Made by a program: the position numbers and the translations under genes
Source: Nonomuraea gerenzanensis
GTDB lineage: Bacteria; Actinomycetota; Actinomycetes; Streptosporangiales; Streptosporangiaceae
Length of the DNA stretch: 64,000 nucleotides
Assembly: GCF_020215645.1 (NCBI RefSeq)
Contig: NZ_CP084058.1
Coordinates: 4,712,001-4,776,000 of the forward strand
Direction of reading: 5' to 3'
Notes under the pieces: model-generated
What the model saw: the letters and a program-made list of their open reading frames with translations, nothing else
Databases searched by the model: none
Told to the model about the DNA's origin: nothing
Shown: positions 29,524 through 61,423 of the stretch, one piece after another
Numbering within the stretch: position 1 is the stretch's first letter
Layout of the letters: the number at the start of each line of letters is the position of its first letter

Positions 29524-29644
29524 CACTCCAGGGCGGACCCGCCGCTCCCGGCAGAGCGGTCACTCCAGGCCGGGCCCGCCGCTTTCGGCGCGAGGGGTCA
29601 CTCCAGGGCCGGGCCCGCCGCTTTCGGCGCGAGGGGTCACTCCA
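29524..29644. repeat. 37-39-bp tandem repeats running out of the ptsI stop
   Basis: CACTCCAG recurs at 29524, 29561, 29599 and 29638 with conserved sequence between. The last copy contains the ptsI stop (TCA 29637-29639, plus-strand view), so the array is a repeated copy of the gene tail. On the minus strand each full unit has CGCCGAAAGCGGCG, a short hairpin (stem CGCCG/CGGCG), so transcription termination is possible. Confidence 0.75.
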
Positions 29645-31313
29645 GGGCGGCGCGTGCCCGCTCCCGGCACTCCTCCAGCGTGAGGCCCGCGAGCGCCTCG
29701 CGCACCGCCGGCACGCACACGGGGGCCATCGACAGGCTCGTCACCCCCAGCCCCACCAGCAGCGGCGCGAGCACCGGATCGCCCGCCGCCTCGCCGCACA
29801 CCCCGACCGGCTTGCCTGCCTGCCTGCCCGCCTGCGCGCACAGGCCGATCAGCTCCAGCAGGGCCGGCTGGCGCGGGTCCAGCAGGTCGGCCAGGGCGGA
29901 GTGCTGGCGGTCGGCGGCGAAGGTGTACTGGGCCAGGTCGTTGGTGCCGACGCTGAGGAAGTCCACCTCCTGCAGCAGCCGCCCCGCGCGCAGCGCCGCC
30001 GCCGGCACCTCGACCATCACGCCCACCCGCGCGATGCCCTTGGCCCGCGCCCGGCGGGCGAAGTCGCTCGCCTCCCCGACCGTGGTGACCATGGGCGCCA
30101 TCACCCACGGCTCGGCCCCGGCCCGGCGCGCCGCCGCGGCGATCGCGTCGAGCTGGGTGTCCAGGACGTCCGGCAGCAGCCGGTCCACGCGCAGGCCGCG
30201 GACGCCCAGGGCCGGGTTCTGCTCCTCCGGCAGGCCGAGGAAGGGCAGCGGCTTGTCGGTGCCCGCGTCGAGCGTGCGCACGATCACGTGCTCCGCCTGG
30301 GCGAACACCTCCGCGTACGCGGTGACCTGCTCCTCGAACGACGGGGCCTGCTTGCGGTCGAGGAACAGGAACTCCGTCCTGAACAGCCCCACCCCCTCAG
30401 CACCCGTCGCCGCGACACCCATCCCTTCAGCGCCCGCTTCCGCGTCACGTGGTGCCAGGTCGGCGGCCGAGCCGATGTTGAGCAGCAGCTTCACCGGATG
30501 CCCGTCGGCCGTCCTCCCCGGGCCCCGGCCCGCGCGGAGGCGGGCCCTGTGGGCGATCTCGGCCCGGGCGACCTCGTCGGCCTCCCGCTCGGTGAGCCCG
30601 ATCGCGATCTCACCGGTGCCGCCGTCCACCCCGATCACCGTGCCGTCGTCGAGGCCCGTGACGCCCGCGCACGCCACGACGGCGGGCAGGCCCATGGCTC
30701 TGGCCAGGATCGCGGTGTGGCTGGTGGGGCCGCCGCGCTCGGTGACCAGCGCCAGCACGTCGGGGCCCAAGCCCGCCGTGTCGGCGGGGGAGAGGTCGGT
30801 GGCCACCAGCACGTACGGGTGACCGGGGGAGGGCAGGCCGGGCATCGGCACGCCGAGGGCGGAGGCCACGGCGCGGTGCCTGAGGTCGTCGAGGTCGGCG
30901 GCCCGCTCGGCCAGGTAACCGCCGAGCGCGGCCAGCGCCTCGCGGTGCGTGGTGAAGGCGGCGTCCAGGGCGTGGGGGGCGCTGGTGCCGCCGGCCGTGA
31001 GCCGTTCGGCCTCCTCCAGCAGCAGGGGGTCCTCGGCGATCATGGCCAGGGCCTCCAGGATCTCGGCCGCCTCGCCGTCGGCGGCCAGCGCCCGCCGGTT
31101 CAGCTCGGCGGCGACCGCTCCCAGCGCCTTGGCCACGGTGGCCGCTTCGGCGCCCGGGTCGGTGACGGGCGCGGGCGCGGGCAACGCGGGCGGCTCGCCC
31201 AGCCGCATCACCGGCCCGGCGGCCCGCCCCTGACTGACCCCCAGCCCGGCCAGCCGCCCGGCGGCCCCTTCCCAAGGAGCCGCAGCGGGCCCGCCGCTCC
31301 CGACCTCAGGCAT
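29637..31313 (-). CDS. ptsI: PTS enzyme I (phosphoenolpyruvate-protein phosphotransferase)
   Basis: 558 aa, slightly short of the usual 570. ERGGPTSHTAILAR (about 190) carries the phospho-accepting His, GLFRTEFLFLDR and PVGVCGEAAGDP mark the PEP-binding barrel, with the catalytic Cys in the latter. It takes phosphate from PEP and passes it to HPr. Near residue 295 a small in-frame duplication reads AEGMGVAATGAEGVGLF, where one copy is normal. It overlaps the HPr gene by 8 bp at the end of the PTS operon. Confidence 0.95.
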   Translation of the reverse strand: MPEVGSGGPAAAPWEGAAGRLAGLGVSQGRAAGPVMRLGEPPALPAPAPVTDPGAEAATVAKALGAVAAELNRRALAADGEAAEILEALAMIAEDPLLLEEAERLTAGGTSAPHALDAAFTTHREALAALGGYLAERAADLDDLRHRAVASALGVPMPGLPSPGHPYVLVATDLSPADTAGLGPDVLALVTERGGPTSHTAILARAMGLPAVVACAGVTGLDDGTVIGVDGGTGEIAIGLTEREADEVARAEIAHRARLRAGRGPGRTADGHPVKLLLNIGSAADLAPRDAEAGAEGMGVAATGAEGVGLFRTEFLFLDRKQAPSFEEQVTAYAEVFAQAEHVIVRTLDAGTDKPLPFLGLPEEQNPALGVRGLRVDRLLPDVLDTQLDAIAAAARRAGAEPWVMAPMVTTVGEASDFARRARAKGIARVGVMVEVPAAALRAGRLLQEVDFLSVGTNDLAQYTFAADRQHSALADLLDPRQPALLELIGLCAQAGRQAGKPVGVCGEAAGDPVLAPLLVGLGVTSLSMAPVCVPAVREALAGLTLEECRERARAALE

Positions 31314-31587
31314 CGAGGGCCTCTTCCGCGTCCAGATCGCGGGCCAGCAGCGCCGCCAGCGCGTCCAGCGCCTCCTCCGCCCCCGGCCCCTCCGCCTCCA
31401 GCGTGACCTCCGTGCCCTGGACGACGCCGAGCGACAGCACCCCCAGCATGCTCTTGGCCGGCACCGCCTTCTCCCCGGCCCGGATCGTCACCGGCACCCC
31501 CGACTTCACCACCGCCTGCACGAACAGCTTCGCCGGACGGGCGTGCAGCCCGCTGGCCGCTGCCACGACCACCGTTCGCTGTGCCAT
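31306..31587 (-). CDS. ptsH: PTS phosphocarrier protein HPr
   Basis: 93 aa. GLHARPA (13-19) holds the His that carries phosphate from enzyme I to IIA. AKSMLGVLSLGV (about 44-55) includes the Ser that is a regulatory site in Gram-positive HPr; whether it is used here is unknown. The C-terminus is a few residues longer than usual and acidic. It is 13 bp after the dehydrogenase and overlaps ptsI by 8 bp. Confidence 0.96.
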   Translation of the reverse strand: MAQRTVVVAAASGLHARPAKLFVQAVVKSGVPVTIRAGEKAVPAKSMLGVLSLGVVQGTEVTLEAEGPGAEEALDALAALLARDLDAEEALDA

Positions 31588-31600
31588 CGCCTACCTCCTG

Positions 31601-32605
31601 TCAGGGTTCTATGGTGACCTTGATGGCCTCGCCCCGGCTGACCAGGCCGATCCCGTCCAGCACGCGCGGCAGCGGCAGCCGGTGGGTGATCAGGTCCGAC
31701 ACCGGTACGGCGCCCTCGGCCACCAGCCGCAGCGCCTCGGCGTTGTGGGCCGGGCTGGAGCCGTTCGCGCCGACGACGGTCAGCTCCCGGTAGTGCACGA
31801 GGTTCGAGTCGAGCGCGATGACCGGGTCGTCCTTGGGCAGCCCGCCGAAGAAGCTGATGCGCCCCTGCCTGGCGGCCATCCGCACCGCCTGCTCCTGTGC
31901 CGCGCCCGAGGCCGCCGCCGTGATCACCACGTCGGAGCCCCGGCCGCCGGTCAGCTTCAGCACCTGCTCGACGGGGTCGGCGTCGATGGTCGCGTCCGGA
32001 CGGACCAGCTCGGCGGCCATCGACAGGCGCTCGGCGTTGACGTCCACCAGGAACACCCGGTTCGCGCCGCGCGCCCGCGCCAGCCGCACGTGCAGGCAGC
32101 CGATCGGGCCCGCGCCCATCACCACCACGTCGTCGCCGGGCCCCACGCGGGCCAGCTCCTGGCCGTTCAGCACGCAGGCGAGCGGCTCGGCCACCGACGC
32201 CTCCGCGAAGCCGACGCCGTCGGGGATGGCGTTGACGCCGTCCACGGCCAGCACCTTCGCCGGGACGATCAGGTACTCGGCGAAGCCGCCGTCGTAGTGG
32301 TAGCCCATCGACTCCTGGTTCGGGCACACCGTACGGCGGCCGGCCACGCAGTCGGGGCAGGTGCCGCACGGGATGGCGGCGATCACCTGCACCCGCGCGC
32401 CGGTGTCCACCACCTCGCCGGCGATCTCGTGGCCCATCACGCGCGGCGGCACGATGTGGTGATGGCCGAACCTGTAGATCTTGGCGTCGGTGCCGCAGGT
32501 CGAGCAGTTGCGGACGCGGATCTTCAGCTCGCCCGGACCGGCGACCGGCTCCGGCGCGTCCTCGATCCTGATGTCGCCCGGCGCGTGGAAACGCGCGACC
32601 TTCAT
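31601..32605 (-). CDS. zinc-dependent polyol/polyol-phosphate dehydrogenase (MDR family)
   Basis: 334 aa from ATG 32605, in an ATGA overlap with the IIA gene. NCSTCGTDAKIY (about 33-44) has the catalytic zinc Cys, RVMGHEIAGEV the His-Glu, and CGTCPDCVAGRRTVC the structural zinc Cys cluster. VVVMGAGPIGCLHVRLAR is the NAD-binding loop. It resembles sorbitol and galactitol-1-phosphate dehydrogenases. Inside a PTS operon it most likely oxidises a polyol phosphate made by the EII complex. Confidence 0.88.
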   Translation of the reverse strand: MKVARFHAPGDIRIEDAPEPVAGPGELKIRVRNCSTCGTDAKIYRFGHHHIVPPRVMGHEIAGEVVDTGARVQVIAAIPCGTCPDCVAGRRTVCPNQESMGYHYDGGFAEYLIVPAKVLAVDGVNAIPDGVGFAEASVAEPLACVLNGQELARVGPGDDVVVMGAGPIGCLHVRLARARGANRVFLVDVNAERLSMAAELVRPDATIDADPVEQVLKLTGGRGSDVVITAAASGAAQEQAVRMAARQGRISFFGGLPKDDPVIALDSNLVHYRELTVVGANGSSPAHNAEALRLVAEGAVPVSDLITHRLPLPRVLDGIGLVSRGEAIKVTIEP

Positions 32606-33030
32606 GCGGTGAGCTCCTTCGTCACTTGGGAGACCTCGGTGGCCTCGCGCAGCGCCCGCGCCCGGTCGGGGTCGAGCAGGATCTCGGCCAGCGCCGCCAG
32701 CAGCGGCACGTGACCGTCGTCTTTCGCGGCGATGCCGACGCAGAGGGTGACGTGCTCGCCGTCCCAGTCGACCCCGCCGGGGAAGCGGACGACGCAGATC
32801 GCGTCGCGCAGGACGTCCCCCTTGGAGGCGTTCGTCCCGTGCGGGATGGCCACGCCCTCGCCGACGTAGGTGGAGATTGACCGCTCGCGTTCGAGCATCG
32901 CCTCGATGTACGGCTCCGCGACCGCGCCCACCTCGACCAGCGCCCGCCCGCACCGGCGGATGGCCGCGTCGCGGTCGGGGGCGCTCTCGTGCAGCAGCAC
33001 GGCACGCGGGTCGAGCAGGTCGTCACGCAT
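32602..33030 (-). CDS. PTS IIA component, mannitol/fructose type
   Basis: 142 aa. STYVGEGVAIPHGT (about 54-67) has the phospho-accepting His of the fructose/mannitol IIA family. VVRFPGGVDWDGEHVTLCVG is the next conserved strand. A free-standing IIA receives phosphate from HPr and passes it to IIB. It overlaps IIB by 8 bp and the dehydrogenase by 4 bp, showing tight translational coupling. Confidence 0.93.
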   Translation of the reverse strand: MRDDLLDPRAVLLHESAPDRDAAIRRCGRALVEVGAVAEPYIEAMLERERSISTYVGEGVAIPHGTNASKGDVLRDAICVVRFPGGVDWDGEHVTLCVGIAAKDDGHVPLLAALAEILLDPDRARALREATEVSQVTKELTA

Positions 33031-33331
33031 CGACCGTGCCGCCGTTCTTGATGGTGTTCACCAGCCGGGTCACCGCCGGGTCGCCGAGGAAGATCTGGAA
33101 CGACACCAGTACCTTCCCCGGAGCGGCCGCCTTCGCACGCGCGGCCAGCCCGGCGTGGCACAGGATCACGTCGGCGTCGTCGGGGATGGAGTTGACCGGG
33201 GTGTGCTCCACGGTCACGCCGGTCCCCTTGAGCTGCTTCTTGAGCTGGGAGGCGAGCATGACGCTGCTGCCCATGCCCGCGTCGCAGGCCACGATGATCT
33301 TGCGGATGTCCTTGCTGTCGATGCCTGCCAT
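33023..33331 (-). CDS. PTS IIB component, mannitol type
   Basis: 102 aa. IIVACDAGMGSSVMLASQLK (about 12-31) holds the active-site Cys of mannitol IIB in the CDAGMGSS loop. It carries phosphate to the incoming sugar at IIC. In many bacteria IIC and IIB are fused; here they are separate proteins with the IIC stop 3 bp before this start. Confidence 0.93.
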   Translation of the reverse strand: MAGIDSKDIRKIIVACDAGMGSSVMLASQLKKQLKGTGVTVEHTPVNSIPDDADVILCHAGLAARAKAAAPGKVLVSFQIFLGDPAVTRLVNTIKNGGTVDA

Positions 33332-33334
33332 GGC

Positions 33335-34435: not shown

Positions 34436-34483
34436 GGACGTGCTCCTTTGGGGGGTTGAGCAGCCGCTTTCTATCGGGATGCG

Positions 34484-34596
34484 CCGGGGCTTGTGGGTCG
34501 GATCTCCGGGGGCGCGCCGGGGGCTTGTCGGTCGGATCTCCCGGGACGCGCGGGGGCTTGTCGGTCGGTTGCTCCGGGGAGGCCGGGGCTTCTTCA
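34484..34596. repeat. 32-34-bp tandem repeats after the fruK-like stop
   Basis: GGGGCTTGTCGGTCGG-type cores recur with GCTT at 34489, 34523, 34556 and 34588 (spacing 34, 33, 32). The array starts at the kinase stop codon (34594-34596) and ends about 50 bp before the IIC start, leaving the IIC ribosome site intact. Confidence 0.75.
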
Positions 34597-35553
34597 GGCG
34601 GGCAGGGTGGTCGAGAGCGGGCGTTCGGGGTCGGGCGGGCCGATGGTGACGGCGCCGGGGTCGATGTCGGCGGGGCCGGGCATCCGGCTGCCGGGCAGGC
34701 GCACGGCGGCGGCGCCCCAGGCCAGCGCCTGCTTGAGAGCTTCGGGGCCACGGCCGCCGCCGGCGAGGAACCCGGCCAGCATCGCGTCGCCCGCGCCGAC
34801 GGAGCTGCGCGGCTCGGTGACGGCGGCCTCGCCGTACCAGCTCCCGCCGTCCTCGACGAGCACGGCGCCGTCGGCGCCGAGGCTGGCCAGCACCGTGCGC
34901 GCACCGGCGGCCCGCAGCTTGGCCGCCGCCTCGGCCACGTCGCCCAGGCAGCGGATCGGCATGCCGGTGGCGGCCGACAGCTCCTCCAGGTTCGGCTTGA
35001 CCAGGGCGGGCGCGGCGCCGAGCGCGCAGGACAGCGCGGGGCCGCTGGTGTCGACGGCCATGTGGATGCCCGCGCCGGCGAACCTGCGGCACAGCCGGGC
35101 GTACACGTCGGCCGGGACCTCGGGCGGCAGGCTCCCCGAGGCCACCACCCAGTCCGCCCCCTGGCCGCCGGAGTGGGCGGCGGCCAGCACGGCGTCGGCG
35201 ATCGTGTCCAGCTCGGCGGGCGACAGCGCGGTGCCCGGCTCATTGATCTTGGTGGTGGTGCCGTCGGGCTCGGCCAGCGTGACGTTCGACCGGGTCGGGC
35301 CCGTCACGGGGACGGTCACCATGTCGAGCCCCTCGGCGGCCAGCAGGCGGACGAGCTGCCTGCCCTCGTCGCCGCCGTACGGGACCACCGCGCGGCTCGC
35401 CACGGCGTTGGCCAGCAGGGCGCGCGAGACGTTCACCCCCTTGCCGCCCGGGTCGAGGTGGGCGGCGGCGGCGCGGATGACCGCGCCCCGGTCGAGGGAG
35501 GCGATCTCGATGGTGCGGTCGAGGCTGGGGTTCAGCGTCAGGGTGAGGATCAC
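34594..35553 (-). CDS. fruK: PfkB-type sugar-phosphate kinase (1-phosphofructokinase/LacC family)
   Basis: 319 aa. MILTLTLNPSLDRTIEI is the signature start of 1-phosphofructokinase and tagatose-6-phosphate kinase. DPGGKGVNVSRAL is the substrate loop and SSVGAGDAMLAGFLAG the catalytic Asp/anion hole. It would make fructose 1,6-bisphosphate (or tagatose 1,6-bisphosphate) for glycolysis. The symbol is by family; the neighbouring polyol dehydrogenase leaves tagatose 6-phosphate open as substrate. Its start overlaps the deoR stop (ATGA). Confidence 0.85.
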   Translation of the reverse strand: MILTLTLNPSLDRTIEIASLDRGAVIRAAAAHLDPGGKGVNVSRALLANAVASRAVVPYGGDEGRQLVRLLAAEGLDMVTVPVTGPTRSNVTLAEPDGTTTKINEPGTALSPAELDTIADAVLAAAHSGGQGADWVVASGSLPPEVPADVYARLCRRFAGAGIHMAVDTSGPALSCALGAAPALVKPNLEELSAATGMPIRCLGDVAEAAAKLRAAGARTVLASLGADGAVLVEDGGSWYGEAAVTEPRSSVGAGDAMLAGFLAGGGRGPEALKQALAWGAAAVRLPGSRMPGPADIDPGAVTIGPPDPERPLSTTLPA

Positions 35554-39110: not shown

Positions 39111-39199
39111 ACGGCGGGCTCGCCGCTCGCGCCCGTCCGCGTCCGGCGAGCCGCACTTCGCCGCGGCGCCCGACGGTGCGCTGAGCCGGATGCGCGCCG

Positions 39200-39251
39200 C
39201 TCAGCGCATCCGTTCAGCGCATCCGTTCAGCGCATCCGTTCAGCGCAGCCG
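39200..39251. repeat. four 13-bp repeats that include the yjbR-like stop codon
   Basis: Units TTCAGCGCATCCG start at 39200, 39213, 39226 and 39239. The last unit contains the TCA (39240-39242) that is the TGA stop of the minus-strand gene, and its code for R-L-R. Each unit therefore repeats the gene tail with a stop codon. Confidence 0.9.
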
Positions 39252-39596
39252 CTTGGCGGCGAGCTCCTGCTCCAGCCGCACCTTCTTCGGCACGCACATC
39301 CGCCACGCCTCCAGCACCAGCTCCCGCATCTCCGCCACGTCGATGGCGGCGGTCCGCACCTCCACCCAGTGGAACCGCAGGTCCGACTCGCGTGGCAGCA
39401 GGAACTTCTCGGGCTCGGCGGCCACCAGGGCCGCGCGCTCCTCCTTGGGGAACCCGAACCCCATCAGGCTCTCGTCACGCGAGAACGCCACGTAGACGAT
39501 CTTACCTACGCGGAACTTCACCCGGTCCCTGATCAGGTGCTCAGAGGAGCGGGGGAGCGTACGGGCGAACTGCCGTACGTCATCGACGGTGAACAC
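39240..39596 (-). CDS. MmcQ/YjbR-family DNA-binding-like protein
   Basis: 118 aa from GTG 39596. TAGCGT on the minus strand (39604-39609) is 7 bases upstream, so the mRNA may be leaderless. The CyaY-like fold is shown by VDDVRQFARTLP at the start, FRVGKIVYVAFS, and RFHWVEVRTAAIDVAEMREL. Biochemical role unknown in this family. It follows the CBS gene on the same strand, 17 bp apart. Confidence 0.8.
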   Translation of the reverse strand: MFTVDDVRQFARTLPRSSEHLIRDRVKFRVGKIVYVAFSRDESLMGFGFPKEERAALVAAEPEKFLLPRESDLRFHWVEVRTAAIDVAEMRELVLEAWRMCVPKKVRLEQELAAKRLR

Positions 39597-40105: not shown

Positions 40106-40192
40106 CTCCCACCTTGGCGCGGGCTCCAAGGCGCCTCCCACCTTGGCGCGGGCTCCAGGGCGTCTCCCGTCTTGGCGAGGGCTCAGAGCGCC
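40106..40192. repeat. three exact-period 29-bp repeats at the decarboxylase stop
   Basis: CTCCCACCTTGGCGCGGGCT begins units at 40106, 40135 and 40164, each 29 bp. The third unit holds the stop (40183-40185) of the minus-strand decarboxylase gene. Units 1 and 2 are nearly identical, unit 3 has diverged. Confidence 0.85.
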
Positions 40193-41586
40193 TTGGCCGC
40201 CAAGCGGATCTCCTCCAGGAGCACCACCAGGTCCTGCTCGGTCGTGTCCGGGTGCAGGATGCAGGTGCGCAGCGCGTCCCGCCCGCCCAGCCGGGTGCCG
40301 GTCAGGAACGCGTTGCCGCGTGCCTGGACCGCCGCCGGGATGGCCCGGTTGAGCTCGTCCAGCCCGTCGGCGCGCGGGATGTGGCGGAAGGCGGTGATCG
40401 AGGTGGTGACCGGGGCGAGCAGCTCGAAGTCCGGGGCCGCCTCCACCATCGCGCCGAGCGTGCGCGCCAGCCCGGTCGTGTGCTCCACCATGCGCTTGAC
40501 GCCCGACCGGCCCAGGTGCGAGAGAGTCGCCCAGGTCTTCAGCGCGCGGAACGGCCGGGTCTGCTCGGGGCCGTACTCGGCGAACCAGCCCAGCTCGCCC
40601 GCGTTCTCGTCCACCAGGTACGACGGCACCAGGCTGAACGCGGCCCGCGCCGCGCCCGGGTCGCGCAGCAGCGCGCAGCCGCAGCCGACCGGCACGCCGA
40701 GCCACTTGTGCGGGTCCAGGGCCAGTGAGTCGGCCCGCTCCAGGCCCGCGTAGTGCGGCGCCGCCCTGTCGGCCAGGACGCCGAGCGCGCCGTACGCGCC
40801 GTCCACGTGGAACCAGAGGCCGTACGCCGCGGCCACGTCCGCGATGTCGTCCAGCGGGTCCACCGCGCCGGAGTTCACCGTGCCCGCGCTGCCCGCCACG
40901 CAGAACGGCCGCAGCCCCGCGTCCAGGTCCTCGGCGATCATGGCGCGCAGCGCTCGCACGTCCATCCGGTACGCCGCGTCCACCGGCACGAGGCGCACGT
41001 TGCGCGCGCCGAGGCCGAGGAGCTGGGCCGCCTTGTGCAGGCAGCTGTGCCCCTCCTCGGTCACGTACATGACCATGGGGGGACGTCCGGACAGCCCCTC
41101 CTCGCGGGCGTCCCAGCCGTCCGCGAGCGCCGCCTGCTGGCGGGCGGTGGCCAGGCAGATCACGGTGGCCATGGACGCGCCGCTGGTCAGCAGCCCGCCG
41201 CCGGGCGGGTGCGGGAAGCCGACGAGGCCGGCCAGCCAGCGCACCACCGTGCGCTCGAGGTGCGGGCCCGCGTGGTCGCCGCCCGCGCAGCTCGGGTTCA
41301 GCGCCGCGGCCAGCGGCTCGATGAGCACGCCCGCCGGGTTGGGCGGCGAGTTCACCCAGCCGAAGAAGCGCGGGTGCCCGTTGCCCATCGGGTACGGCAG
41401 CACGTGCTCGCGCGTGTCCTCCAGCAGCTCGTCGAGCGGGCGGCCCGTCTCGGGCAGCTCCTGGCCGGTCAGCCAGGCCAGCTCGGCCTCCGGCACCGGC
41501 TGCCACACCGGCCGCCCCGGGACGCCCTCCAGGTGGTCGGCCATGATCTGGGCGGCCTTGGCGCCGGCCCGGCGCAGGTCATGCAT
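40183..41586 (-). CDS. PLP-dependent (aromatic-L-amino-acid-type) decarboxylase
   Basis: 467 aa. SLALDPHKWLGVPVGCG (about 298-314) has the Lys that binds pyridoxal phosphate. WFHVDGAYGAL gives the Asp for the pyridine nitrogen, and VTEEGHSCLHKAA the His that stacks on the ring. N-terminal HPRFFGWVNSPPNPAGV is typical of group II decarboxylases (tryptophan, tyrosine, DOPA, histidine). Substrate is not fixed. Its start overlaps the XRE-cupin gene by 8 bp, so that regulator likely senses the substrate or product. Confidence 0.9.
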   Translation of the reverse strand: MHDLRRAGAKAAQIMADHLEGVPGRPVWQPVPEAELAWLTGQELPETGRPLDELLEDTREHVLPYPMGNGHPRFFGWVNSPPNPAGVLIEPLAAALNPSCAGGDHAGPHLERTVVRWLAGLVGFPHPPGGGLLTSGASMATVICLATARQQAALADGWDAREEGLSGRPPMVMYVTEEGHSCLHKAAQLLGLGARNVRLVPVDAAYRMDVRALRAMIAEDLDAGLRPFCVAGSAGTVNSGAVDPLDDIADVAAAYGLWFHVDGAYGALGVLADRAAPHYAGLERADSLALDPHKWLGVPVGCGCALLRDPGAARAAFSLVPSYLVDENAGELGWFAEYGPEQTRPFRALKTWATLSHLGRSGVKRMVEHTTGLARTLGAMVEAAPDFELLAPVTTSITAFRHIPRADGLDELNRAIPAAVQARGNAFLTGTRLGGRDALRTCILHPDTTEQDLVVLLEEIRLAAKAL

Positions 41587-42905: not shown

Positions 42906-43718
42906 ATGAACGCCGTCTACACGCATGGCCACCACGAGTCCGTGCTGCGCTCGCACCGCTGGCGCACCGCCGAGAACTCGGCCGCGTACCTGCTGCCCCA
43001 CCTCAAGCCGCACATGAAGATCCTGGACGTGGGCAGCGGCCCCGGCACCATCACCGCCGACCTGGCGGCCCGCGTGCCCGACGGCCAGGTGACGGCCTCC
43101 GAGGTCACCGCCGACGCGCTGGAGCTGGCCAGGGCCGAGGTGGCGGGCCGGGGGCAGGCCAACGTGGACTTCGCCGTGGCGGACGTGCACGCGCTCGGCT
43201 TCCCTGACGACACGTTCTGCGTGGTGCACGCCCACCAGGTGCTGCAGCACGTCGCCGACCCGGTGGGGGCGCTGCGGGAGATGGGGCGGGTGACCAAGCC
43301 GGGCGGCTTCGTGGCGGCGCGCGACAGCGACTACGCCGCGTTCACCTGGTTCCCGCGAGTGCCCGCGCTGGACGAGTGGATGGCCCTGTACCAGCAGCTC
43401 GCGCGCGCCAACGGTGGCGAGCCGGACGCCGGGCGGCGGCTGCTCTCCTGGGCCCGCGCCGCCGGCTTCGAGGACGTCACCGCCACCTCCTCCACCTGGT
43501 GCTTCGCCAGTGCGGAGGACCGGGCCTGGTGGGGCGGCATGTGGGCCGAGCGGATCCTGCGCTCGAAGCTGGCCGAGCAGGCGCTGTCCAGCGGCGCCGC
43601 CACCGAGCCGGACCTGCGGCGCATGTCGGAGGGATGGCTGGAGTGGGCGGCGGCGCAGGACGGGTGGCTGTCCGTCCTGCACGGCGAGATCCTCTGCCGG
43701 GTCGCGCACCCGGCCTGA
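42906..43718 (+). CDS. UbiE/Methyltransf_11-type SAM methyltransferase
   Basis: 270 aa from ATG 42906, GAGGGAG upstream. MKILDVGSGPGTITADLAAR (about 37-56) is the SAM loop, SEVTADAL the acidic site, and VVHAHQVLQHVADPVGALRE the post-II motif. Similar proteins methylate small lipophilic or aromatic substrates; the target is unknown. TAGGGT at 42866-42871 is a possible -10. The last codons start the 14-bp repeat array. Confidence 0.88.
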   Translation: MNAVYTHGHHESVLRSHRWRTAENSAAYLLPHLKPHMKILDVGSGPGTITADLAARVPDGQVTASEVTADALELARAEVAGRGQANVDFAVADVHALGFPDDTFCVVHAHQVLQHVADPVGALREMGRVTKPGGFVAARDSDYAAFTWFPRVPALDEWMALYQQLARANGGEPDAGRRLLSWARAAGFEDVTATSSTWCFASAEDRAWWGGMWAERILRSKLAEQALSSGAATEPDLRRMSEGWLEWAAAQDGWLSVLHGEILCRVAHPA

Positions 43719-43852
43719 CGCTGGCGGCGCGACGCCGGCGGCGTGACGCTCACGGCGTGACGCTCACGGCCTGACGCTCACGGCCTGACGCTCACGGCCT
43801 GACGCTCACGGCCTGACGCTCACGGCCTGGTGTTTTCGGCCGGACGCTCCCG
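43713..43852. repeat. ten 14-bp repeats filling a convergent intergenic gap
   Basis: Ten contiguous 14-bp units (type GCCTGACGCTCACG) run from 43713 to 43852, exactly 140 bp. Unit 1 has the methyltransferase stop TGA (43716-43718), and the array ends 2 bases before the stop of the convergent gene (43855). Units 3 and 4 (GCGTGACGCTCACG) contain CGTGA/TCACG, a small hairpin. Central units are identical; outer ones diverge, as expected for growth by slippage from the centre. Confidence 0.93.
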
Positions 43853-43854
43853 GC

Positions 43855-44370
43855 TCAGAGACCCAGGGTGCGGACGCGCTGCCACTGCGGGTCGCGGTAC
43901 AGGACCATGTCGGTGCCCACCATCTCGTCGGGCGCCGACAACATGGCGATCTCACCCGCCGCCTGCAACTGCAGCAGCAGGTCACGCACCCGGGGCCCGA
44001 CCGGCAGCCGCCCGGTCGGCAGCCCCAGCCCGTTGCGCACCGTGTCGGCGACCTCCGACAGCCGGAACGGCCCGTCGAACCCCGCCACCACCCCGCGCAC
44101 GACCGTGATCGTGATCAGATGCTCGGCCTCGGCGTGCGCGAGCTGCCAGGTCACCTGCTCCTTGCGCCGGCCGGTGCCCGCGCAGGAGGTGCAGGGCCGT
44201 TTCAGCTCGGGCGTCACCTCCTCCTCGGTCGAGCCGAGGCAGGCCGAGCACAGCCCGTTCTCGGCGGCGTGCAGCTCGGCGGTCATCCGGCCGCCGAGAA
44301 TCACGCCGCAGCCGCAGGCGAACGCGTCACCCAGGATGCCGGTCTGAGGGGAGATCGCATGCTCACTCAC
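43855..44370 (-). CDS. Cys-rich probable zinc-binding protein, unknown
   Basis: 171 aa. The N-terminal half has FACGCG, GLCSACLG and RPCTSCAGTGRR, Cys pairs like a DnaJ-type or zinc-ribbon cluster (CxxCxGxG-like in the last). The C-terminal half is an alpha/beta segment (FRLSEVADTVRNGLGL, VRDLLLQLQAAGE), perhaps a winged helix. No known family recognised. It is convergent with the methyltransferase gene. Confidence 0.65.
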   Translation of the reverse strand: MSEHAISPQTGILGDAFACGCGVILGGRMTAELHAAENGLCSACLGSTEEEVTPELKRPCTSCAGTGRRKEQVTWQLAHAEAEHLITITVVRGVVAGFDGPFRLSEVADTVRNGLGLPTGRLPVGPRVRDLLLQLQAAGEIAMLSAPDEMVGTDMVLYRDPQWQRVRTLGL

Positions 44371-54035: not shown

Positions 54036-54131
54036 GTGCTCACCGTCGTGCTCGCCGTCGTGCTCGCCGTCGTGCTCGCCGTCGTGCTCGCCGTCGTGCT
54101 CGCCGTCGTGCTCGCCGTCGTGCTCACTGTC
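54036..54131. repeat. eight 12-bp repeats reaching into the luxR stop
   Basis: GTGCTCGCCGTC is repeated eight times without gaps; the first (GTGCTCACCGTC) and last (GTGCTCACTGTC) differ. The last unit overlaps the stop of the minus-strand regulator (TCA 54130-54132). Read in one minus frame the array would code for (E-H-D-G)n, but no start leads into it. Confidence 0.92.
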
Positions 54132-54753
54132 AGAGCCAGCCACGCTCCCGCGCCACCTGTACGGCCTCCGCGCGGTTGCGCGTCCCCGTCTTGCCGATCG
54201 CCGAGGACAGGTAGTTGCGCACGGTGCCCTCCGTCAGGAACAGCCGCCGGGCGATCGCCGCCACGGTCGGCTCGCCGGCGGCCACGCGCAGCACCTCGGC
54301 CTCCCGCTGGGTGAGCGGGCTGGGGCCGGTGGTCAGCGCGGACACGGCCAGCTTGGGATCGATGACCCGCTCGCCGGCCATCACCCGGCGCACCGCCGCG
54401 GCCAGCTCGGCGGCCGGGGCGTCCTTGACCACGAACCCGGCCACGCCCGCCTCCAGCGCCCTGCTGAGATACCCGGGCCGGCCGAACGTGGTCACGATGA
54501 TCACCCGGCGGTCGCGCAGCCGCTCGGCCACCTCCAGGCCCGACAGACCGGGCATCTCGATGTCGAGCAGGACCACGTCGGGGTCGTGCGCCAGCGCCGC
54601 CGTCGGCACCTCGTCGCCGCGGCCGACCTCCGCCACCACCTCGATGTCGTCCTCCAGGCCGAGCAGCGCCGCCAGCCCGCCCCTGACCAGGTCCTGGTCG
54701 TCGGCGATGAGCACCCGGATCGCGGCGCCGGTGCTCGTGCGGCCCCGGGTCAC
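54130..54753 (-). CDS. NarL/LuxR-family response regulator
   Basis: 207 aa from GTG 54753, GTGA overlap with the kinase stop. Receiver: IADDQ, VVLLDIEMPG with phospho-Asp about 59, TTFG, KDAPA with Lys about 109. LuxR HTH at about 145-200: LTQREAEVLRVAAGEPTVAA, FLTEGTVRNYLSSAIGKTGT. With the upstream kinase and ABC-2 exporter it resembles DesKR/drug-export sensor modules. A 20-bp inverted repeat before the ATPase gene is a candidate target. Confidence 0.92.
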   Translation of the reverse strand: MTRGRTSTGAAIRVLIADDQDLVRGGLAALLGLEDDIEVVAEVGRGDEVPTAALAHDPDVVLLDIEMPGLSGLEVAERLRDRRVIIVTTFGRPGYLSRALEAGVAGFVVKDAPAAELAAAVRRVMAGERVIDPKLAVSALTTGPSPLTQREAEVLRVAAGEPTVAAIARRLFLTEGTVRNYLSSAIGKTGTRNRAEAVQVARERGWL

Positions 54754-55946
54754 GGCGCCTCCACGGGGATCTGCGCGTAGAGGCGGTAGCCGCCCTCAGG
54801 CAGGGTGCCGACCTCCAGGCGCCCGCCCGCGGCGCCGAGCCGCTCCGCCAGCCCCGTCAGCCCGTTACCCGGCCGCGGCCCCGCCGGCCCCGCCGGCCCC
54901 GCCGGCCCCTCATCCGGCCCCTCATCCGGCGCGGCGCTCTCCCGCGCCCCTCGCTCACGGGATCCGCCCGGCTCGCCGTCGTCGCGGACCTCCACCGCCG
55001 CCATCCTCCCGTCCGTCCGCAGGCGGATGTCGCACCGCCGGGCCCGGCTGTGGCGCAGCACGTTCGTGGCCGCCTCCCGCACGGCCCAGGCGAGCTGCGC
55101 CTCGGCGGCGGCCGGGATGGGCCCGTCGGCGGGGCAGACCGCCACCTCGATCCCCGCCACCCCCAGGTTGCGGGTGGCGGTCTCCAGCGCCTCCGACAAC
55201 GACGGCGCGCGGTAGCCGGTGATGGCGTGCCGCACCTCGTCCAGCGCCCGCCGCGCGGCCCGCTCCACCTCGGTCATCTCGCGGGCGGCCCGCCCGGGGT
55301 CGGCGGGGGCCAGGCGCGCGGCGAGCTGGCTCCTGATCGTGATCGAGGTCAGCGTGTGCCCCAGCGTGTCGTGCAGGTCCCTGGCGAAGCGCAGGCGCTC
55401 GTTCTCCACGGCGAGCTGCGTCACCTCGACGCGGGCGGCGTTCAGCCGGGCCACGAGCAGCCCCATGTGTTTCATCGCCCACACGGCCATCGCCTGCGCC
55501 GCGATGACCAGCGGCACCCACCACACCTGCGCCGGCGGCGCGCCGAAAACCGGCAGCGCCGCCGTCTCCACCGCCGCCGTCGCGACCGCCGCCGCGGCGA
55601 AGGCCGGGGTGCGCAGCGACGCGGCGAACGCGCTGATCAGGAACACGAACGAGGCGTACGCCCACGGCGCCCCGAACAGCGGCAGCAGCGCCAGCGCCGA
55701 CCCGGTCAGCCCCGCCAGCGCCCACGGTCTCGGCGTGCCCGCCCGTGGGCTCAGCATCCGCCACATGATCACCAGCCAGCAGGCCCCGAACACCGCCGTC
55801 AGCCCCAGCGCCGCCACCACCGCGAGCGGTCCGGGTCCGGCGCCGAGGAACGCCCAGAGCGGCCAGGCGACCAGCAGCAACCAGGCGCCGGAGCCCACCC
55901 GCGCCGCCGCCCGGCCCCTGCCGACGTCGAACTCCGCGACCGTCAT
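54750..55946 (-). CDS. NarL-type sensor histidine kinase (HisKA_3)
   Basis: 398 aa from ATG 55946, the last of four ATGA-linked starts. Five or so membrane helices in residues 15-140. ERLRFARDLHDTLGHTLTSI (about 185-204) is the HisKA_3 phospho-His motif. HATPase: WAVREAATNVLRHSRARRCD and GNGLTGLAERLGAAGG. A low-complexity D-E-G-P / G-P-A repeat lies before the G box. It co-operates with the following LuxR regulator. Confidence 0.9.
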   Translation of the reverse strand: MTVAEFDVGRGRAAARVGSGAWLLLVAWPLWAFLGAGPGPLAVVAALGLTAVFGACWLVIMWRMLSPRAGTPRPWALAGLTGSALALLPLFGAPWAYASFVFLISAFAASLRTPAFAAAAVATAAVETAALPVFGAPPAQVWWVPLVIAAQAMAVWAMKHMGLLVARLNAARVEVTQLAVENERLRFARDLHDTLGHTLTSITIRSQLAARLAPADPGRAAREMTEVERAARRALDEVRHAITGYRAPSLSEALETATRNLGVAGIEVAVCPADGPIPAAAEAQLAWAVREAATNVLRHSRARRCDIRLRTDGRMAAVEVRDDGEPGGSRERGARESAAPDEGPDEGPAGPAGPAGPRPGNGLTGLAERLGAAGGRLEVGTLPEGGYRLYAQIPVEAP

Positions 55947-56033
55947 GTGCCGACATCCACCTCTGCGACCGTCATGTGCCGACATCTAGCCTCTCGGCCG
56001 TCATGTGCCGACATCCACCTTCGCGACCGTCAT
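55918..56033 (-). repeat. 29-bp tandem repeat that multiplies a start codon
   Basis: Four 29-bp units begin with ATG at 56033, 56004, 55975 and 55946 (minus strand). Units 1-3 are open for ten codons (MTVAKVDVGT, MTAERLDVGT, MTVAEVDVGT), each ending in ACATGA, where the TGA overlaps the next ATG. Unit 4 continues into the kinase (MTVAEFDVGR). The permease stop also overlaps the first ATG. So permease, three mini-ORFs and kinase form an unbroken ATGA chain. Confidence 0.93.
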
Positions 56034-56749
56034 AGTGCCCGACGGTAACGCCACAGGGCCAGCCCGGCGAAGAGCAGCGTCCACGCCGCCAGCACGGCCA
56101 GCGACGTGCCCGTCGGCGCCAGGCCGTCCAGCGTCCGCCACCCCAGCGCCCCCGCCTGGTAGGCCGGGCTGTACTCGGCGACCGCGCGCATCCCCGCCGG
56201 CATGGCCTCGACGGGCAGCCACAGCCCGCCCAGCACCGTCAGCAGGAAGTAGACGATCATCATGGCCAGGTTCGCGCCCTGCCCCTGGATGGCGTAACCG
56301 AAGGCCGTGCCGAGCGCCGCGAACGGCAGCACCCCCACCCAGATCAGCACGACCAGCAACGGCCAGGTGCCGGCCGGCAGCCGCACCCCCGACAGCAGCG
56401 CCCCGCCGGCCAGCACCACGACGATGCTCGGCAACACCATGATGGCGCCGCTGACCAGCTTGGCCGTCACGTACCCGTGCGCGGGCAGCGGCGTGATCGC
56501 CAGCTGCGCCAGCCACCCCTTCGAACGCTCCAGCGCGATGGCGCCCCCGATGAACAGCGCGGAGCCCATCGCGCCGTAGGTGGCCATCGACACCATCGCG
56601 TACGCCGCGAAGTCGTCCACCCCGGGCGGCGCGACGTCCAGCACCTGGGTGAACACCAGGTAGATGGCCAGCGGGAAGAACGTCGTCATGACCAGCCCCA
56701 TCGGGTTGCGGTAGCCGCGCGCCAGCTCCAGCCGCAGGTACGACCCCAT
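56030..56749 (-). CDS. ABC-2 type exporter permease
   Basis: 239 aa with six membrane helices. MGSYLRLELARGYRNPMGLV at the N-terminus is typical of ABC2_membrane permeases. VYFLLTVLGGLWLPVEAMPAGMR near residue 165 matches the conserved ABC-2 signature (GGxxxPxxxMP). It forms the exporter with the ATPase upstream (TGATG junction). Its stop overlaps the first ATG of the 29-bp repeat. Confidence 0.9.
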   Translation of the reverse strand: MGSYLRLELARGYRNPMGLVMTTFFPLAIYLVFTQVLDVAPPGVDDFAAYAMVSMATYGAMGSALFIGGAIALERSKGWLAQLAITPLPAHGYVTAKLVSGAIMVLPSIVVVLAGGALLSGVRLPAGTWPLLVVLIWVGVLPFAALGTAFGYAIQGQGANLAMMIVYFLLTVLGGLWLPVEAMPAGMRAVAEYSPAYQAGALGWRTLDGLAPTGTSLAVLAAWTLLFAGLALWRYRRAL

Positions 56750-57668: not shown

Positions 57669-57688
57669 TGATGTAGTGCCGTACGTCA
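57669..57688. promoter_or_regulatory. 20-bp inverted repeat before the exporter operon
   Basis: TGATGTA (57669-57675) and TACGTCA (57682-57688) are inverted arms with 6 of 7 matches around a 6-bp spacer, 30-49 bp upstream of the ATPase start. LuxR-type response regulators bind such 20-bp dyads, so the NarL-type regulator of this operon is the natural candidate. Confidence 0.5.
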
Positions 57689-57699
57689 GCCGGGCCCGT

Positions 57700-57855: not shown

Positions 57856-57941
57856 TCGGCGAGGAGGTACCGCGATCGGTGCAGCCGATCGCCCGCGCAA
57901 GGACGACGACGCCGGGCACGCCGCCTTCCTGCCGTCGCCGC

Positions 57942-58490
57942 ATGATTCGCTTCTGCATCCGCCACAGACGCCTGGTCGCCGCCCTCCGGCTGGCCCTGAC
58001 CGCCGCGCTCGCCGCCGCCGCGGCCACCTGGCCGGCCCCCGCCCACGACGACTTCACGCTGCCGGGCTCCGAGACCCAGCGACGGCTGGGCGGCACCGGC
58101 GGCCCGATCGACGCGTGGGTGCCGATGATGCTGTTCACGATCACGTTCGGCCTGTCGATGGACTACGAGGTGTTCCTGCTGTCGCGGATCAGGGAGGAGT
58201 ACCTGAGGGACCGCGACAACACCCGCGCGGTCGCCGCCGGGCTCGCCGAGACGGCCCGGGTCATTACCGCCGCGGCTACGATCATGTTCTGTGTGTTCGC
58301 CGCTTTCGGCGCCTTCGACGATCGCGCGCTACGCGTCATGGGGGTGGGCCTGGCGGTCGCGGTGCTGGTGGATGCCACTGTGGTGCGCCTGGTTCTGGTG
58401 CCCGCCGCCATGGAAGTGATCGGTGAGCGCAACTGGTGGTTGCCTGTCCTGACCTTTCGGAGGCTGACACCGCAGCGGAATGGTACGTAA
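57942..58490 (+). pseudogene. MMPL transporter with large internal deletion
   Basis: 182 aa from ATG 57942. The first part (RRLVAALRLALTAALAAAAA, then DDFTLPGSETQR) is the N-terminus of an MMPL transporter. It jumps at about residue 48 to WVPMMLFTITFGLSMDYEVF and LLSRIREEY, the start of the second transmembrane block, and runs to a normal C-terminus (VLVDATVVRLVLVPAAMEVI). Full-length MMPL proteins are about 700 aa; some 450 residues are missing in frame. Function as a transporter is unlikely. Confidence 0.75.
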
Positions 58491-58493
58491 TAT
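58464..58493 (+). promoter_or_regulatory. promoter of the three-paralog cluster
   Basis: CTGACA (58464-58469) and TAATAT (58488-58493) with an 18-bp spacer make a good vegetative promoter. It lies at the end of the MMPL remnant and 31 bp before the first paralog start. Confidence 0.6.
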
Positions 58494-58523
58494 CCAGACA
58501 TCACGAGCGTTGGGGGCGCCAGG

Positions 58524-59423
58524 GTGCCAGGACAGAACGTGGGTGTGGTAGTAGATCCGCAAGTGCCGCGCGAAGTGGCCGGACTGTTACGTGCCAACGC
58601 CCCCTTGCTGTCCAGGGTGAGAGCCGGCTGGGTGCCCCCGGCCGCGGTCCCGGCCCGCCGCCGCAGCCCCTCCAGCGCGCTGCTGCTGGCCGCCACGCCC
58701 GTGGTGATCGCGCTCATGGCCGTCCTGCTGGCCTCGCAGGCCTCGGCGGCCGGGTTCGTGCTGCTCGGCACGTACGTCTTCATCGTCCTGGTGAAGATCG
58801 CCTCCATGAGCGAGACCCCCGAGGACGAGCGCCCGCAGGAGCGCGGCGTCTACGAGCAGGCCCGCTGGTACGACGGCCGCTTCCTGCTCCCCGAGGACTT
58901 CGACCACGACGCCAGGCTGGTGCTGGCCAGGGCGCAGCGGGCCATCGGCGCCGTGCTGCGCTCGCACGTCAACGCCGAAGGGCTGCTCGACGACGCCCGC
59001 AACGCGGTGATGCTGCCCGCGCAGGAGTGGGAGATAGCCCGGCTGCTGGCCAAGCTGTCGGCGCTGCGCCTGGAGCACAGGGAGCTGCTGGCCAGAGGCA
59101 TCGCGCCCGAGGTGGCCGCGGTGATCGAGCCGCTCGAACGGGCCCTGGTCAACAGCGAGGCCGCCGTCGTCGCCCGCGTCGAGGCGCTGGAACGTTACGC
59201 CGGTCACGTCGCCGAGGCCGAGCGCGCCTACCACGCCCGCGGCCAGATCGAGGAGCTGCGCGCCCGCCTGCCCCGCTACGAGGAGCTGCTGGCGGAGGCG
59301 GGCGCGGACCGGCTCGGTGTGACCGAGATCGAGCGGCTCGCCGAGGACGCCGACGTGCTGGAGCGCACCTTACGCCGCAGTGTCGAGTCCGCCCACGAGG
59401 CGTTCCGCTACTTGGAGAGCTGA
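58524..59423 (+). CDS. paralog 1 of a tandem triplet: two-helix membrane protein with coiled coil
   Basis: 299 aa from GTG 58524. N-terminal VGVVVDPQVPREVAGLLRAN, then two membrane helices (about 52-73, 77-93). A cytosolic region follows with the triplet signature HVNAEGLLDDARNAVMLPAQ and EWEIARLLAKLSALRLEHRE (about 150-195), then a long coiled coil with EALERYAGHVAEAERAYHAR, and the ending SVESAHEAFRYLES. Family not recognised. The same order of parts is found in the next two genes. Confidence 0.75.
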   Translation: MPGQNVGVVVDPQVPREVAGLLRANAPLLSRVRAGWVPPAAVPARRRSPSSALLLAATPVVIALMAVLLASQASAAGFVLLGTYVFIVLVKIASMSETPEDERPQERGVYEQARWYDGRFLLPEDFDHDARLVLARAQRAIGAVLRSHVNAEGLLDDARNAVMLPAQEWEIARLLAKLSALRLEHRELLARGIAPEVAAVIEPLERALVNSEAAVVARVEALERYAGHVAEAERAYHARGQIEELRARLPRYEELLAEAGADRLGVTEIERLAEDADVLERTLRRSVESAHEAFRYLES

Positions 59424-59454
59424 CGTAACTCATGATCGATTGAGGATGCACAAC

Positions 59455-60363
59455 GTGCCCGGACGTCAAGCGAAGGTGATAGTCGATCCGGTGGTGCCCG
59501 ACGACGTCGCGGCCTTCCTGCGCGAGCACCGCAAGCTGCTGCCGCGCATCCGGTCGGGCTGGGTCCCCCCGAACCGCGGGCACTCTCCGGTGGCGCGCGC
59601 CGCGGGCCGGCTGGCCGCCGCCGCGACGGCGCTGGCGGCGGCGGTGTACGGGCTGGTGCTGTTCGTCGCCGAACGGTACACGCCGTTCGTGGTGATCATG
59701 ACCGGCTCGGCGCTGCTGATGGTCAGCGTCCTGTTGCGGCCCAGGCCCGACGCCGAGGCGGAGCGGCGGCGCGCCCTGGAGCGCCAGGTGTACGAGGTCG
59801 CCCGCCGCCATGAGGGCCACTACGTGCTGCGCGAGCGGCTCGACGAGCCCGCCAGGGCGCTCATGGCCCGCGCCCAGGCCGCCATCGACCAGGTCGTGGA
59901 CTCCAGCGTGAACGCCGAGGGCCTGCTCGACGGCGTGCGCAACGGCGTGATGCTGCCCGCGCAGGAGTGGGAGATCGCCCGCCTGCTGGCCAAGCTGTCG
60001 GAGCTGCGCGCCGAGCACCAGGAGGTCGTCTCCGAGGGCGTCATCCCCGAGGTGGCCGCCGTGGCGGAGCCGCTCGCCCACGCCCTGGACAGCAGCGAGC
60101 GGGCGGTGCTGGCCCGGGTCGAGGCCCTGGAGCGGTACGCGGGCCACGTGGCCGACGCAGAGCGCGCCTACCGCGCCAGGAACCAGATCGAACGCCTCAG
60201 CGCGCGGCTGCCCCGCTACGAGGAACTGCTCGCGGAGTCGGGCGCGGACGGCTCGGTGGTGCCGGAGCTGAGCCGGTTGTCCGACGACGCCGACCGTCTT
60301 GAGCAGGCGCTTCGCGACAGCGTCAGCTCAGCGCACGAGGCTTTTCGCCACCTTGATAGCTGA
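59455..60363 (+). CDS. paralog 2 of the tandem triplet
   Basis: 302 aa from GTG 59455, matched to the starts of its paralogs (VPGRQAKVIVDPVVPDDVAA); ATG 59446 is an alternative. Two membrane helices (about 47-67, 73-90). Signature SVNAEGLLDGVRNGVMLPAQ then EWEIARLLAKLSELRAEHQE, coiled coil EALERYAGHVADAERAYRAR, end SVSSAHEAFRHLDS. 31 bp after paralog 1. The loop between helix 2 and the signature (RRHEGHYVLRERLDEPARAL) varies most among the three. Confidence 0.75.
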   Translation: MPGRQAKVIVDPVVPDDVAAFLREHRKLLPRIRSGWVPPNRGHSPVARAAGRLAAAATALAAAVYGLVLFVAERYTPFVVIMTGSALLMVSVLLRPRPDAEAERRRALERQVYEVARRHEGHYVLRERLDEPARALMARAQAAIDQVVDSSVNAEGLLDGVRNGVMLPAQEWEIARLLAKLSELRAEHQEVVSEGVIPEVAAVAEPLAHALDSSERAVLARVEALERYAGHVADAERAYRARNQIERLSARLPRYEELLAESGADGSVVPELSRLSDDADRLEQALRDSVSSAHEAFRHLDS

Positions 60364-60384
60364 CTTCGCTTAGGATCCGGATTC

Positions 60385-61272
60385 GTGGCGGATGTGGTAG
60401 TAGACCCCGAGGTACCATCGGACGACGCCCAGCTTCTCAGGGACAGCCGTCGGGTCCTGCTCAAGATGCGCACCGGCTGGACACCCCAGCCACGACGGCC
60501 GATCGCCGGCGCCCACCACCGCATGATGGCGGCGTTCGGCGGGGCGGCCCTGTTCGGCCTGCTGCTGGGCTTCGGCTCGTTCGCCCGCGGTCTCGGGCTG
60601 CTGATGCTGGTGCTGTTCGGCATCCCGCTGATGATCGTGCTGTTCGTCGGCAGGGACGACCGCACCTGGGACGACGAGGACGCCTACGAGCGCGAGGTCT
60701 ACGACCAGCTGCGCTGGTACGAGGGCCGCTACGTGCTCACCGACGACCTCGACGAGTCCTCGGCCAGGCTCCTGGCCCGCGCCCAGCGGGCCATCGCCGC
60801 CGTCACCGGCTCCCGGGTCAACGCCGAGGGGCTGCTCGACGACGTGCGCAACGGCGTGATGCTGCCCGCCCAGGAGTGGGAGATCGCCCGGCTGCTGGCC
60901 AAGCTGTCGGCGCTGCGCGCCAAGCACAGGGAGACCGTCTCGCAGGGGCTCACCCCCGAGGTGGAGGCCGTGGCCCGGCCGCTCGCCCGGGCGCTCGACA
61001 GCAGCGAGGAGGCCGTGCTGGCCCGGGTCGAGGCCCTGGAGCGGTACGCGGCCAACGTCGCCGACGCCGAGCGCGCGTACGTGGCCCACCACCAGATCGA
61101 GGAGCTGCGCAGCCGGGTGCATCAGTACGAGGAGCTGGTGGCCGAGACGGGGGCCGACGGGTTCGCCGTACCGGAGCTGGAGCGCCTGGCCGCCGACGCC
61201 GACCGCCTGGAGCAGGCGCTGCGGCGCAGCGTCAGCTCGGCCCAGGAGGCCTTCCGCCACCTGGAGCCCTGA
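60385..61272 (+). CDS. paralog 3 of the tandem triplet
   Basis: 295 aa from GTG 60385. TAGGAT at 60371-60376 is 8 bases upstream, so it may have its own leaderless promoter. VADVVVDPEVPSDDAQLLRD start, two membrane helices (about 47-67, 70-90), signature RVNAEGLLDDVRNGVMLPAQ then EWEIARLLAKLSALRAKHRE, coiled coil EALERYAANVADAERAYVAH, end SVSSAQEAFRHLEP. Most like paralog 1 in the R-W-Y-x-G-R segment. Confidence 0.75.
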   Translation: MADVVVDPEVPSDDAQLLRDSRRVLLKMRTGWTPQPRRPIAGAHHRMMAAFGGAALFGLLLGFGSFARGLGLLMLVLFGIPLMIVLFVGRDDRTWDDEDAYEREVYDQLRWYEGRYVLTDDLDESSARLLARAQRAIAAVTGSRVNAEGLLDDVRNGVMLPAQEWEIARLLAKLSALRAKHRETVSQGLTPEVEAVARPLARALDSSEEAVLARVEALERYAANVADAERAYVAHHQIEELRSRVHQYEELVAETGADGFAVPELERLAADADRLEQALRRSVSSAQEAFRHLEP

Positions 61273-61330
61273 CGGGCGTGCAGGTGGCTGCGGACGGCGT
61301 TCAGGCGTGAGGGCGCCCTGCGGCGGCAGA

Positions 61331-61423
61331 CGGCCGTGATGGTGGGCGGTCGGCAGCAGCCGGTCAGGCGTGGGGAGCGGCCCGCAGCAGGCGGTCAGGC
61401 GTGGTGGGCGGCCTGCAGCAGCA
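61331..61423. repeat. 31-bp repeats of the murG-like gene tail
   Basis: GGTCAGGCGTGGTGGGCGGC starts units at 61393 and 61362, and a weaker copy fits 61331. The 61393 unit contains the gene's stop codon (61395-61397) and its last nine codons. The unit at 61362 is the same sequence with about four changes, lying outside the gene. Convergent gap 61273-61394. Confidence 0.85.

Follow-up and report, generated by a model that had tools for sequence, protein, structure and literature searches.

Tandem arrays over stop codons in Nonomuraea gerenzanensis and related actinobacteria

Tandem arrays at gene ends have already been published for Borg elements, for which the accessible part of a 2023 paper (PMC9879509) describes arrays that form independently and evolve fast. 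About half of these lie between genes or have a first unit that falls wholly or partly in the end of a gene, partial repeats often flank them, and slippage is proposed as their origin. In mycobacteria, the accessible sections of PMC2734929 describe the variable-number tandem repeat (VNTR) ETR-F, a lineage-specific array located between rnc and fpg1, where related species that do not belong to the lineage have a short gap. In the current study, we analyzed the tandem arrays located at gene ends in a stretch of 64,000 nt of the actinobacterium Nonomuraea gerenzanensis (contig NZ_CP084058.1, positions 4,712,001 to 4,776,000; the whole stretch is called the window), together with arrays sampled from the rest of the genome holding it (G000, 12.07 Mb) and from related genomes. 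We consider these arrays to be probably young and lineage-specific minisatellites, i.e., slippage duplications that survive where they are harmless, with no function needed to explain them.

The Nonomuraea arrays resemble those of Borg elements in their independent formation, unrelated units, recent age and fast turnover, and also in their periods, which are divisible by 3 inside open reading frames and mostly not outside them (PMC9879509, accessible part). On the other hand, the Borg repeats described there are perfect, A-rich and located on archaeal extrachromosomal elements, while the Nonomuraea units are G+C-rich, often decayed (often 75-95% matching) and located on a 12-Mb actinobacterial contig or chromosome. 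A locus-specific unit, absent from relatives and with its first copy in a gene end, was found as in Borg-type repeats (the genome search being made for the ptsI array only), while perfect, A-enriched units on a Borg element were not found among the window arrays; the arrays thus work like Borg-type repeats without being members of that group. The sequence-only reading of the window, which had first pointed to these arrays, knew of no described system of this kind, a statement that the Borg paper contradicts. ETR-F is likewise a lineage-specific tandem array in an otherwise short gap, although it runs from 40 bp past the stop to the next start and has a length that correlates with expression (PMC2734929, accessible sections), while the Nonomuraea arrays have their edges in the gene tail and are known here from sequence alone.

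Among the papers listed by the literature searches, made in a library outside of which most subscription papers lie, none was seen to report arrays over stops as a feature general to actinobacterial chromosomes. MIRU elements of Mycobacterium are located at stop/start junctions, as is one of the arrays described here (55919-56039, over an ATGA junction). MIRUs are, however, dispersed repeats (PMC2734929, accessible sections) that form a homologous family, whereas each Nonomuraea array is built from its own locus.

Arrays at gene ends in the window

The seven arrays listed by the sequence-only reading are all present at or near the positions it gave (Table 1), and Pfam matches back the names of their genes, i.e., a PEP-utilising enzyme (ptsI), YjbR, a pyridoxal decarboxylase, a methyltransferase, a response regulator with a GerE/luxR domain, a glycosyltransferase 28 (murG-like) and PfkB (fruK-like), confirming that tandem arrays at gene tails are a real feature of this DNA. 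The claim that the first unit lies in the gene end and includes the stop holds strictly for five of the seven by the edges of Tandem Repeats Finder (TRF), which reach 2 to 28 bases into the gene, and does not hold for the luxR and fruK-like genes, where the arrays end just outside the stop. An eighth case, beyond the earlier list, lies between two same-strand genes (55919-56039), each of which retains its own signal from a different copy.

Table 1. Tandem arrays at gene ends in the window, with positions counted from the first base of the window, arrays called by TRF and overlaps into the gene counted from the last base of the stop
Array	Strand	Period (bp)	Copies	Gene at the array	Position of the array
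29524..29648	-	39	3.3	ptsI, 29637-31313 (-)	First unit includes last 12 bases and stop; gene convergent with clpB-like gene (26996-29512, +)
34476..34588	-	34	3.4	PfkB (fruK-like), 34594-35553	Edge 5 bp outside stop
39192..39253	-	13 (best-scoring row 26)		YjbR-like, 39240-39596	Unit includes stop; 14 bases into gene
40106..40184	-	29	2.7	Pyridoxal decarboxylase, 40183-41586	2 bases into gene (about 9 by eye, mismatches allowed)
43711..43854	+	14	10.3	Methyltransferase, 42906-43718 (+)	Unit includes stop; 8 bases into gene; occupies whole gap to convergent gene 43855-44370 (-, no Pfam match)
54036..54125	-	12	7.5	luxR-type regulator, 54130-54753	Edge 4 bp outside stop (by eye, degenerate last unit extends into stop)
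55919..56039	-	29	4.1	56030-56749 and 54750-55946	Over ATGA stop/start junction; first copy carries stop of 56030-56749, later copy the called start of 54750-55946
61346..61422	-	31	2.5	Glycosyltransferase-28, 61395-62546	Includes last 28 bases and stop

The sequence-only reading had attributed the arrays to one local process common to all loci and not to a dispersed repeat, and this part of it is supported. The units of different loci are unrelated when compared by eye, and a 301-bp query over the ptsI array gave one match in its own genome, with 40 of 189 candidates scored. A dispersed repeat of the MIRU/REP type was rejected on these grounds, the units other than that of ptsI being compared by eye only.

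Strong arrays also occur elsewhere in the window, at 8180-8365 (31 bp x6), 21112-21206 (12 bp x8) and 6614-6748 (two neighbours of 25 and 17 bp). All are gap arrays, separated from the called stops by 50 bp or more, and genes may have been missed in some of these gaps.

Frequency, position and periods of the arrays

Genes were not taken from an annotation but called with a home-made codon-usage caller, which was retrained for each set, so that counts for the same loci vary slightly. All counts refer to arrays and not to stops, and an array over both a stop and a start is counted at the stop. The genus tables omit the Mobilicoccus, Actinospica and Gordonia loci (L121, L124, L152), and the Actinomadura set includes one Actinocorallia locus. 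The pooled sets used for offset rates and for period and junction statistics add L043, L051 and L055-L058, L055 overlapping L090 by about 14 kb.

Arrays with a score of at least 60 numbered 98 in 464 kb (the window and 20 stretches, inside-gene arrays included), whereas five rounds of dinucleotide shuffling left a mean of 4.0. Six arrays in the window span a stop and two end within 5 bp of one, i.e., eight per 62 stops, compared with 45 arrays spanning or near a stop per 992 stops in 60 sampled 20-kb stretches outside it; the window is therefore richer in stop arrays than its own genome. In 864 kb of G000 (the window and 40 stretches), 81 arrays touched a gap, 33 of them spanning a stop, eight more within 5 bp of a stop and six over a start only. 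The other Nonomuraea species (28 loci, 569 genes) had 66 gap arrays, with 31 spanning a stop, three near a stop and none over a start only. Stop-spanning arrays were also present in the Actinomadura set (134 genes; six, with one more near a stop) and in Streptomycetaceae (677 genes; 11, with six near a stop and two over starts), one of the latter 11 (L150, period 141) lying nearly all inside a gene, while TRF detected no stop arrays in Nocardiopsis (73 genes).

The rate varied between genomes. Arrays spanning or near a stop amounted to 14/213 stops in G004 (presumed Nonomuraea sp. PA05), 5/195 in G003, 2/172 in G007, 5/227 in G009 and 17/643 in Streptomycetaceae. They were few in G010 (presumed N. 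jabiensis; 4/373, drawing on L160-L179 and L054-L056) compared with G000 and G004. The six Nonomuraea genomes sampled thus carry about 1 to 7 stop arrays per 100 stops, and their rates differ (chi-square P 0.001), whereas the difference between G000 and Streptomycetaceae is only suggestive (P 0.06). Stop arrays are common to these actinobacteria at varying rates and are not unique to G000.

The predicted enrichment of array edges at stop codons is seen in the sampled genome. By gap type, the array density of G000 was 2.05 per kb in convergent gaps versus 0.19 per kb in divergent ones. The same tendency was detected without TRF, as the last 14 bases of a gene recurred (at least 12 of 14) within 100 bp downstream at 17/162 convergent and 6/256 tandem stops (window included, for gaps of 30 bp or more). 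With tails swapped between genes, the rates were 0.12% and 0.10%, respectively. In convergent gaps, the pooled rate per kb-position was 4.51 for overlaps of 1-10 bp into the gene, 4.08 for 11-20 bp and 3.66 for more than 20 bp, and these flat rates are as tolerance predicts. The sequence-only reading had supposed that such duplications are tolerated only just past a stop codon, which is too narrow, since 56 of the 107 gap arrays in the G000 sample are clear of both stops and starts, even though some of the gaps may conceal genes that the caller missed. Arrays in gaps that do not span a stop often have periods divisible by 3 (25/48 in G000, 25/44 in other Nonomuraea), which points to missed genes in some gaps and makes the counts of free gap arrays upper bounds.

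The periods separate the arrays according to their position. Inside genes (at least 60 bp from the gene ends), 65 of 69 arrays have a period that is a multiple of 3, against 18 of 72 among stop-spanning arrays, and this contrast is the mark of selection filtering a process that is blind to the frame. Together with their positions, it supports the part of the sequence-only reading that invoked slippage tolerated around the stop. We also considered an excess of periods of the form 2 mod 3 among stop-spanning arrays, seen in the first samples (35/72 in Nonomuraea and Actinomadura, 8/11 in Streptomycetaceae). Set as a test beforehand, it failed in two new samples (3/9 in G000, 0/2 in G010) and was rejected; samples partly reusing earlier loci gave 18/36 in G000 outside the window, 8/14 in PA05, 2/5 in G003, 0/2 in G007, 1/3 in G009, 0/2 in G010 and 8/11 in Streptomycetaceae.

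Extra junction homology of at least 3 bp was found in 8 of 14 perfect two-copy arrays spanning a stop (6/7 in G000, 2/7 in other Nonomuraea) and in 13 of 20 other perfect two-copy gap arrays of G000 and other Nonomuraea, where about 8% would be expected at random. This homology, which can be scored only in arrays with a perfect core (44 of 66 stop-spanning arrays lack one), points to misalignment between short direct repeats. The arrays thereby show two features of slippage minisatellites or VNTRs, i.e., head-to-tail copies of a short unit and short homology at the junctions, the latter in 2/7 outside G000.

Turnover between species

The arrays are replaced between related species. The nearest named relatives of G000 are Nonomuraea thailandensis, [Actinomadura] parvosata and Nonomuraea sp. 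PA05, whose clpB-like proteins are 93-94% identical. In the gap between clpB and ptsI, the array of G000 (39 bp x3.3) and that of N. fuscirosea (23 bp x2.3) derive from the ptsI tail, N. thailandensis has an array from the clpB tail (16 bp x7.2) and PA05 has another over the ptsI stop (29 bp x3.0). Weaker or free arrays are present in five of 29 species, including N. cavernae (over the clpB stop), N. montanisoli and N. rhodomycinica, which have one array in common, and two species with free ones; no array is present in 20 of the 29, 15 of which have a gap of at most 59 bp. Likewise, the G004 gap orthologous to the array at 43711..43854 measures 18 bp and has no array.

Orthologs were compared for window genes between about 19 and 46.5 kb, as ordered pairs with species shared among pairs. 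Among 508 such comparisons that began at a stop spanned by an array, the partner also had one in 52, and the unit was the same, by the similarity score applied, in only one of these, namely N. fuscirosea versus G000, whose units have the ptsI tail in common and differ in period. A conserved RNA element is disfavoured by this turnover of the units.

Origin of the arrays and its implications

We propose that a short stretch would be duplicated when short direct repeats, mostly 12-60 bp from each other, misalign by strand slippage or in a comparable way, as the junctions suggest, and that more slippage would enlarge the array. Duplications disrupting a reading frame, a start region or a promoter would presumably be lost by selection, while a duplication containing the whole stop codon would leave the first copy and the protein unchanged and would be nearly neutral. 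As a consequence, most surviving short-gap duplications in compact genomes with short gaps, above all convergent ones, would overlap a stop. The positions and periods of the arrays back this second step. From one species of a genus to another, arrays vanish and unrelated ones arise, whether at that gene end or at others, a step visible in the ortholog comparisons. The NucS mismatch-repair pathway of actinobacteria leaves indels uncorrected (PMC8228993, accessible part), and this blindness fits a slippage origin without proving it. By profile search, NucS is present in G000. In a check for a difference in repair genes, NucS and Ku were found in 13 of 13 genomes searched, a set that does not include the low-rate G010. 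The NucS C-terminal family has one more match in G000, at G000:C1:3350514-3350792, which is weaker (46 bits against a cut-off of 24).

Several observations weigh against slippage and tolerance as a complete explanation. Under a null model in which each unit is placed at random over gene-sparing positions (convergent gaps up to 300 bp, G000 outside the window), convergent gaps held 25 stop-spanning arrays in G000 where 18.9 were expected (P 0.028) and 33 versus 22.6 in other Nonomuraea, with none of 500 simulations as high, and tandem gaps held 8 versus 3.9 in G000 (P 0.022) and 14 versus 8.2 in other Nonomuraea (P 0.006). In Streptomycetaceae, convergent gaps held 4 such arrays where 6.0 were expected, i.e., no excess, although tolerance should also act there, while the excess in tandem gaps was weak (5 versus 2.3, P 0.076). 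The slower decay of the constrained coding copy yields only about a 1.23-fold effect in a simulation with random units. Besides, tandem gaps, unlike convergent ones, have a peak just outside the stop, where the 10 arrays with offsets of -5 to 0 amount to 3.26 per kb-position (versus 1.1-1.8 for spanning arrays), which is not expected under flat tolerance, and slippage is deduced from sequences of different species. Random harmless placement thus predicts most of the pattern and not all of it, and the remaining excess may reflect constraint on gap interiors or a modest hot spot linked to stops.

Such a hot spot could be mutational and tied to the termination of translation or transcription in Nonomuraea, where re-replication at the ends of convergent genes would be promoted by stalled ribosomes or polymerase, R-loops or supercoiling, so that stops gain duplications faster than other neutral DNA. 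The excess over the null model in both Nonomuraea sets, its absence from the convergent gaps of Streptomycetaceae and the peak just outside the stops of tandem gaps all agree with this idea, as does the interior of convergent gaps, which holds between 0 and 2 arrays per kb-position while stops have about 4. Arrays of independent origin are also found repeatedly at orthologous stops in the two classes of closest species (6/26 and 11/51, background 0.067), although recurrence is near background in more distant classes (28/324 and 6/106) and, like the excess, may be inflated by convergent orientation, the slower decay of the coding copy and constraint on gap interiors. Array edges, moreover, have no preferred position inside the gene, and junction homology is similar in stop-spanning and other arrays. 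We regard the hot spot as unlikely. Rather doubtful, too, is the bolder proposition that Nonomuraea gene ends, mainly convergent ones, undergo duplication at two to three times the rate of neutral DNA nearby, beyond what tolerance allows and with rates that depend on the species, with the spacers after stops continually rebuilt from the gene's own tail.

Selection of the arrays as 3' elements, i.e., as terminators, mRNA stabilisers or backup stop codons, would agree with their location 3' of genes and with a hairpin noticed by eye in the ptsI unit. Backup stops in frame, however, require periods divisible by 3, the minority among stop-spanning arrays, and the units are not retained between species. 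When 60 bases around the stop were folded, array stops formed no stronger RNA hairpin than comparable stops, neither in convergent gaps of at least 50 bp (z -0.56, n=49, versus -0.70, n=163) nor in tandem ones (z -0.33, n=24, versus -0.46, n=347), except in short convergent gaps, where the folding of 13 array stops is slightly stronger than that of 275 stops lacking an array (z -0.90 versus -0.48). Amplification of terminators is not supported by folding either, convergent gaps of several genera folding better than shuffles with no clear difference that explains the arrays. The role in termination or 3' mRNA stability that the sequence-only reading had considered possible finds no support in predicted folding, with the slight exception given above, or in conservation, and selected 3' elements appear quite improbable. 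An origin in assembly artefacts or misplaced gene ends is hardly credible. The gene ends come from a home-made caller and short-read assemblies mishandle repeats, but the pattern is present in a 3-contig genome and many other assemblies, the tail copies were detected without TRF and seven of the genes located at arrays in the window have frames backed by Pfam.

Overall, the interpretation given by the sequence-only reading is partly supported, and slippage duplications surviving where they are harmless remain the probable origin of the arrays. Such arrays should be read with caution and not be taken for regulatory elements. Their near-complete turnover between species means that they could be fine typing markers, and they could provide a natural experiment on slippage in bacteria with a mismatch repair blind to indels. 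They also point to a source of the spacer DNA between convergent genes in compact, G+C-rich genomes, i.e., the repeated copying of a gene's own end.

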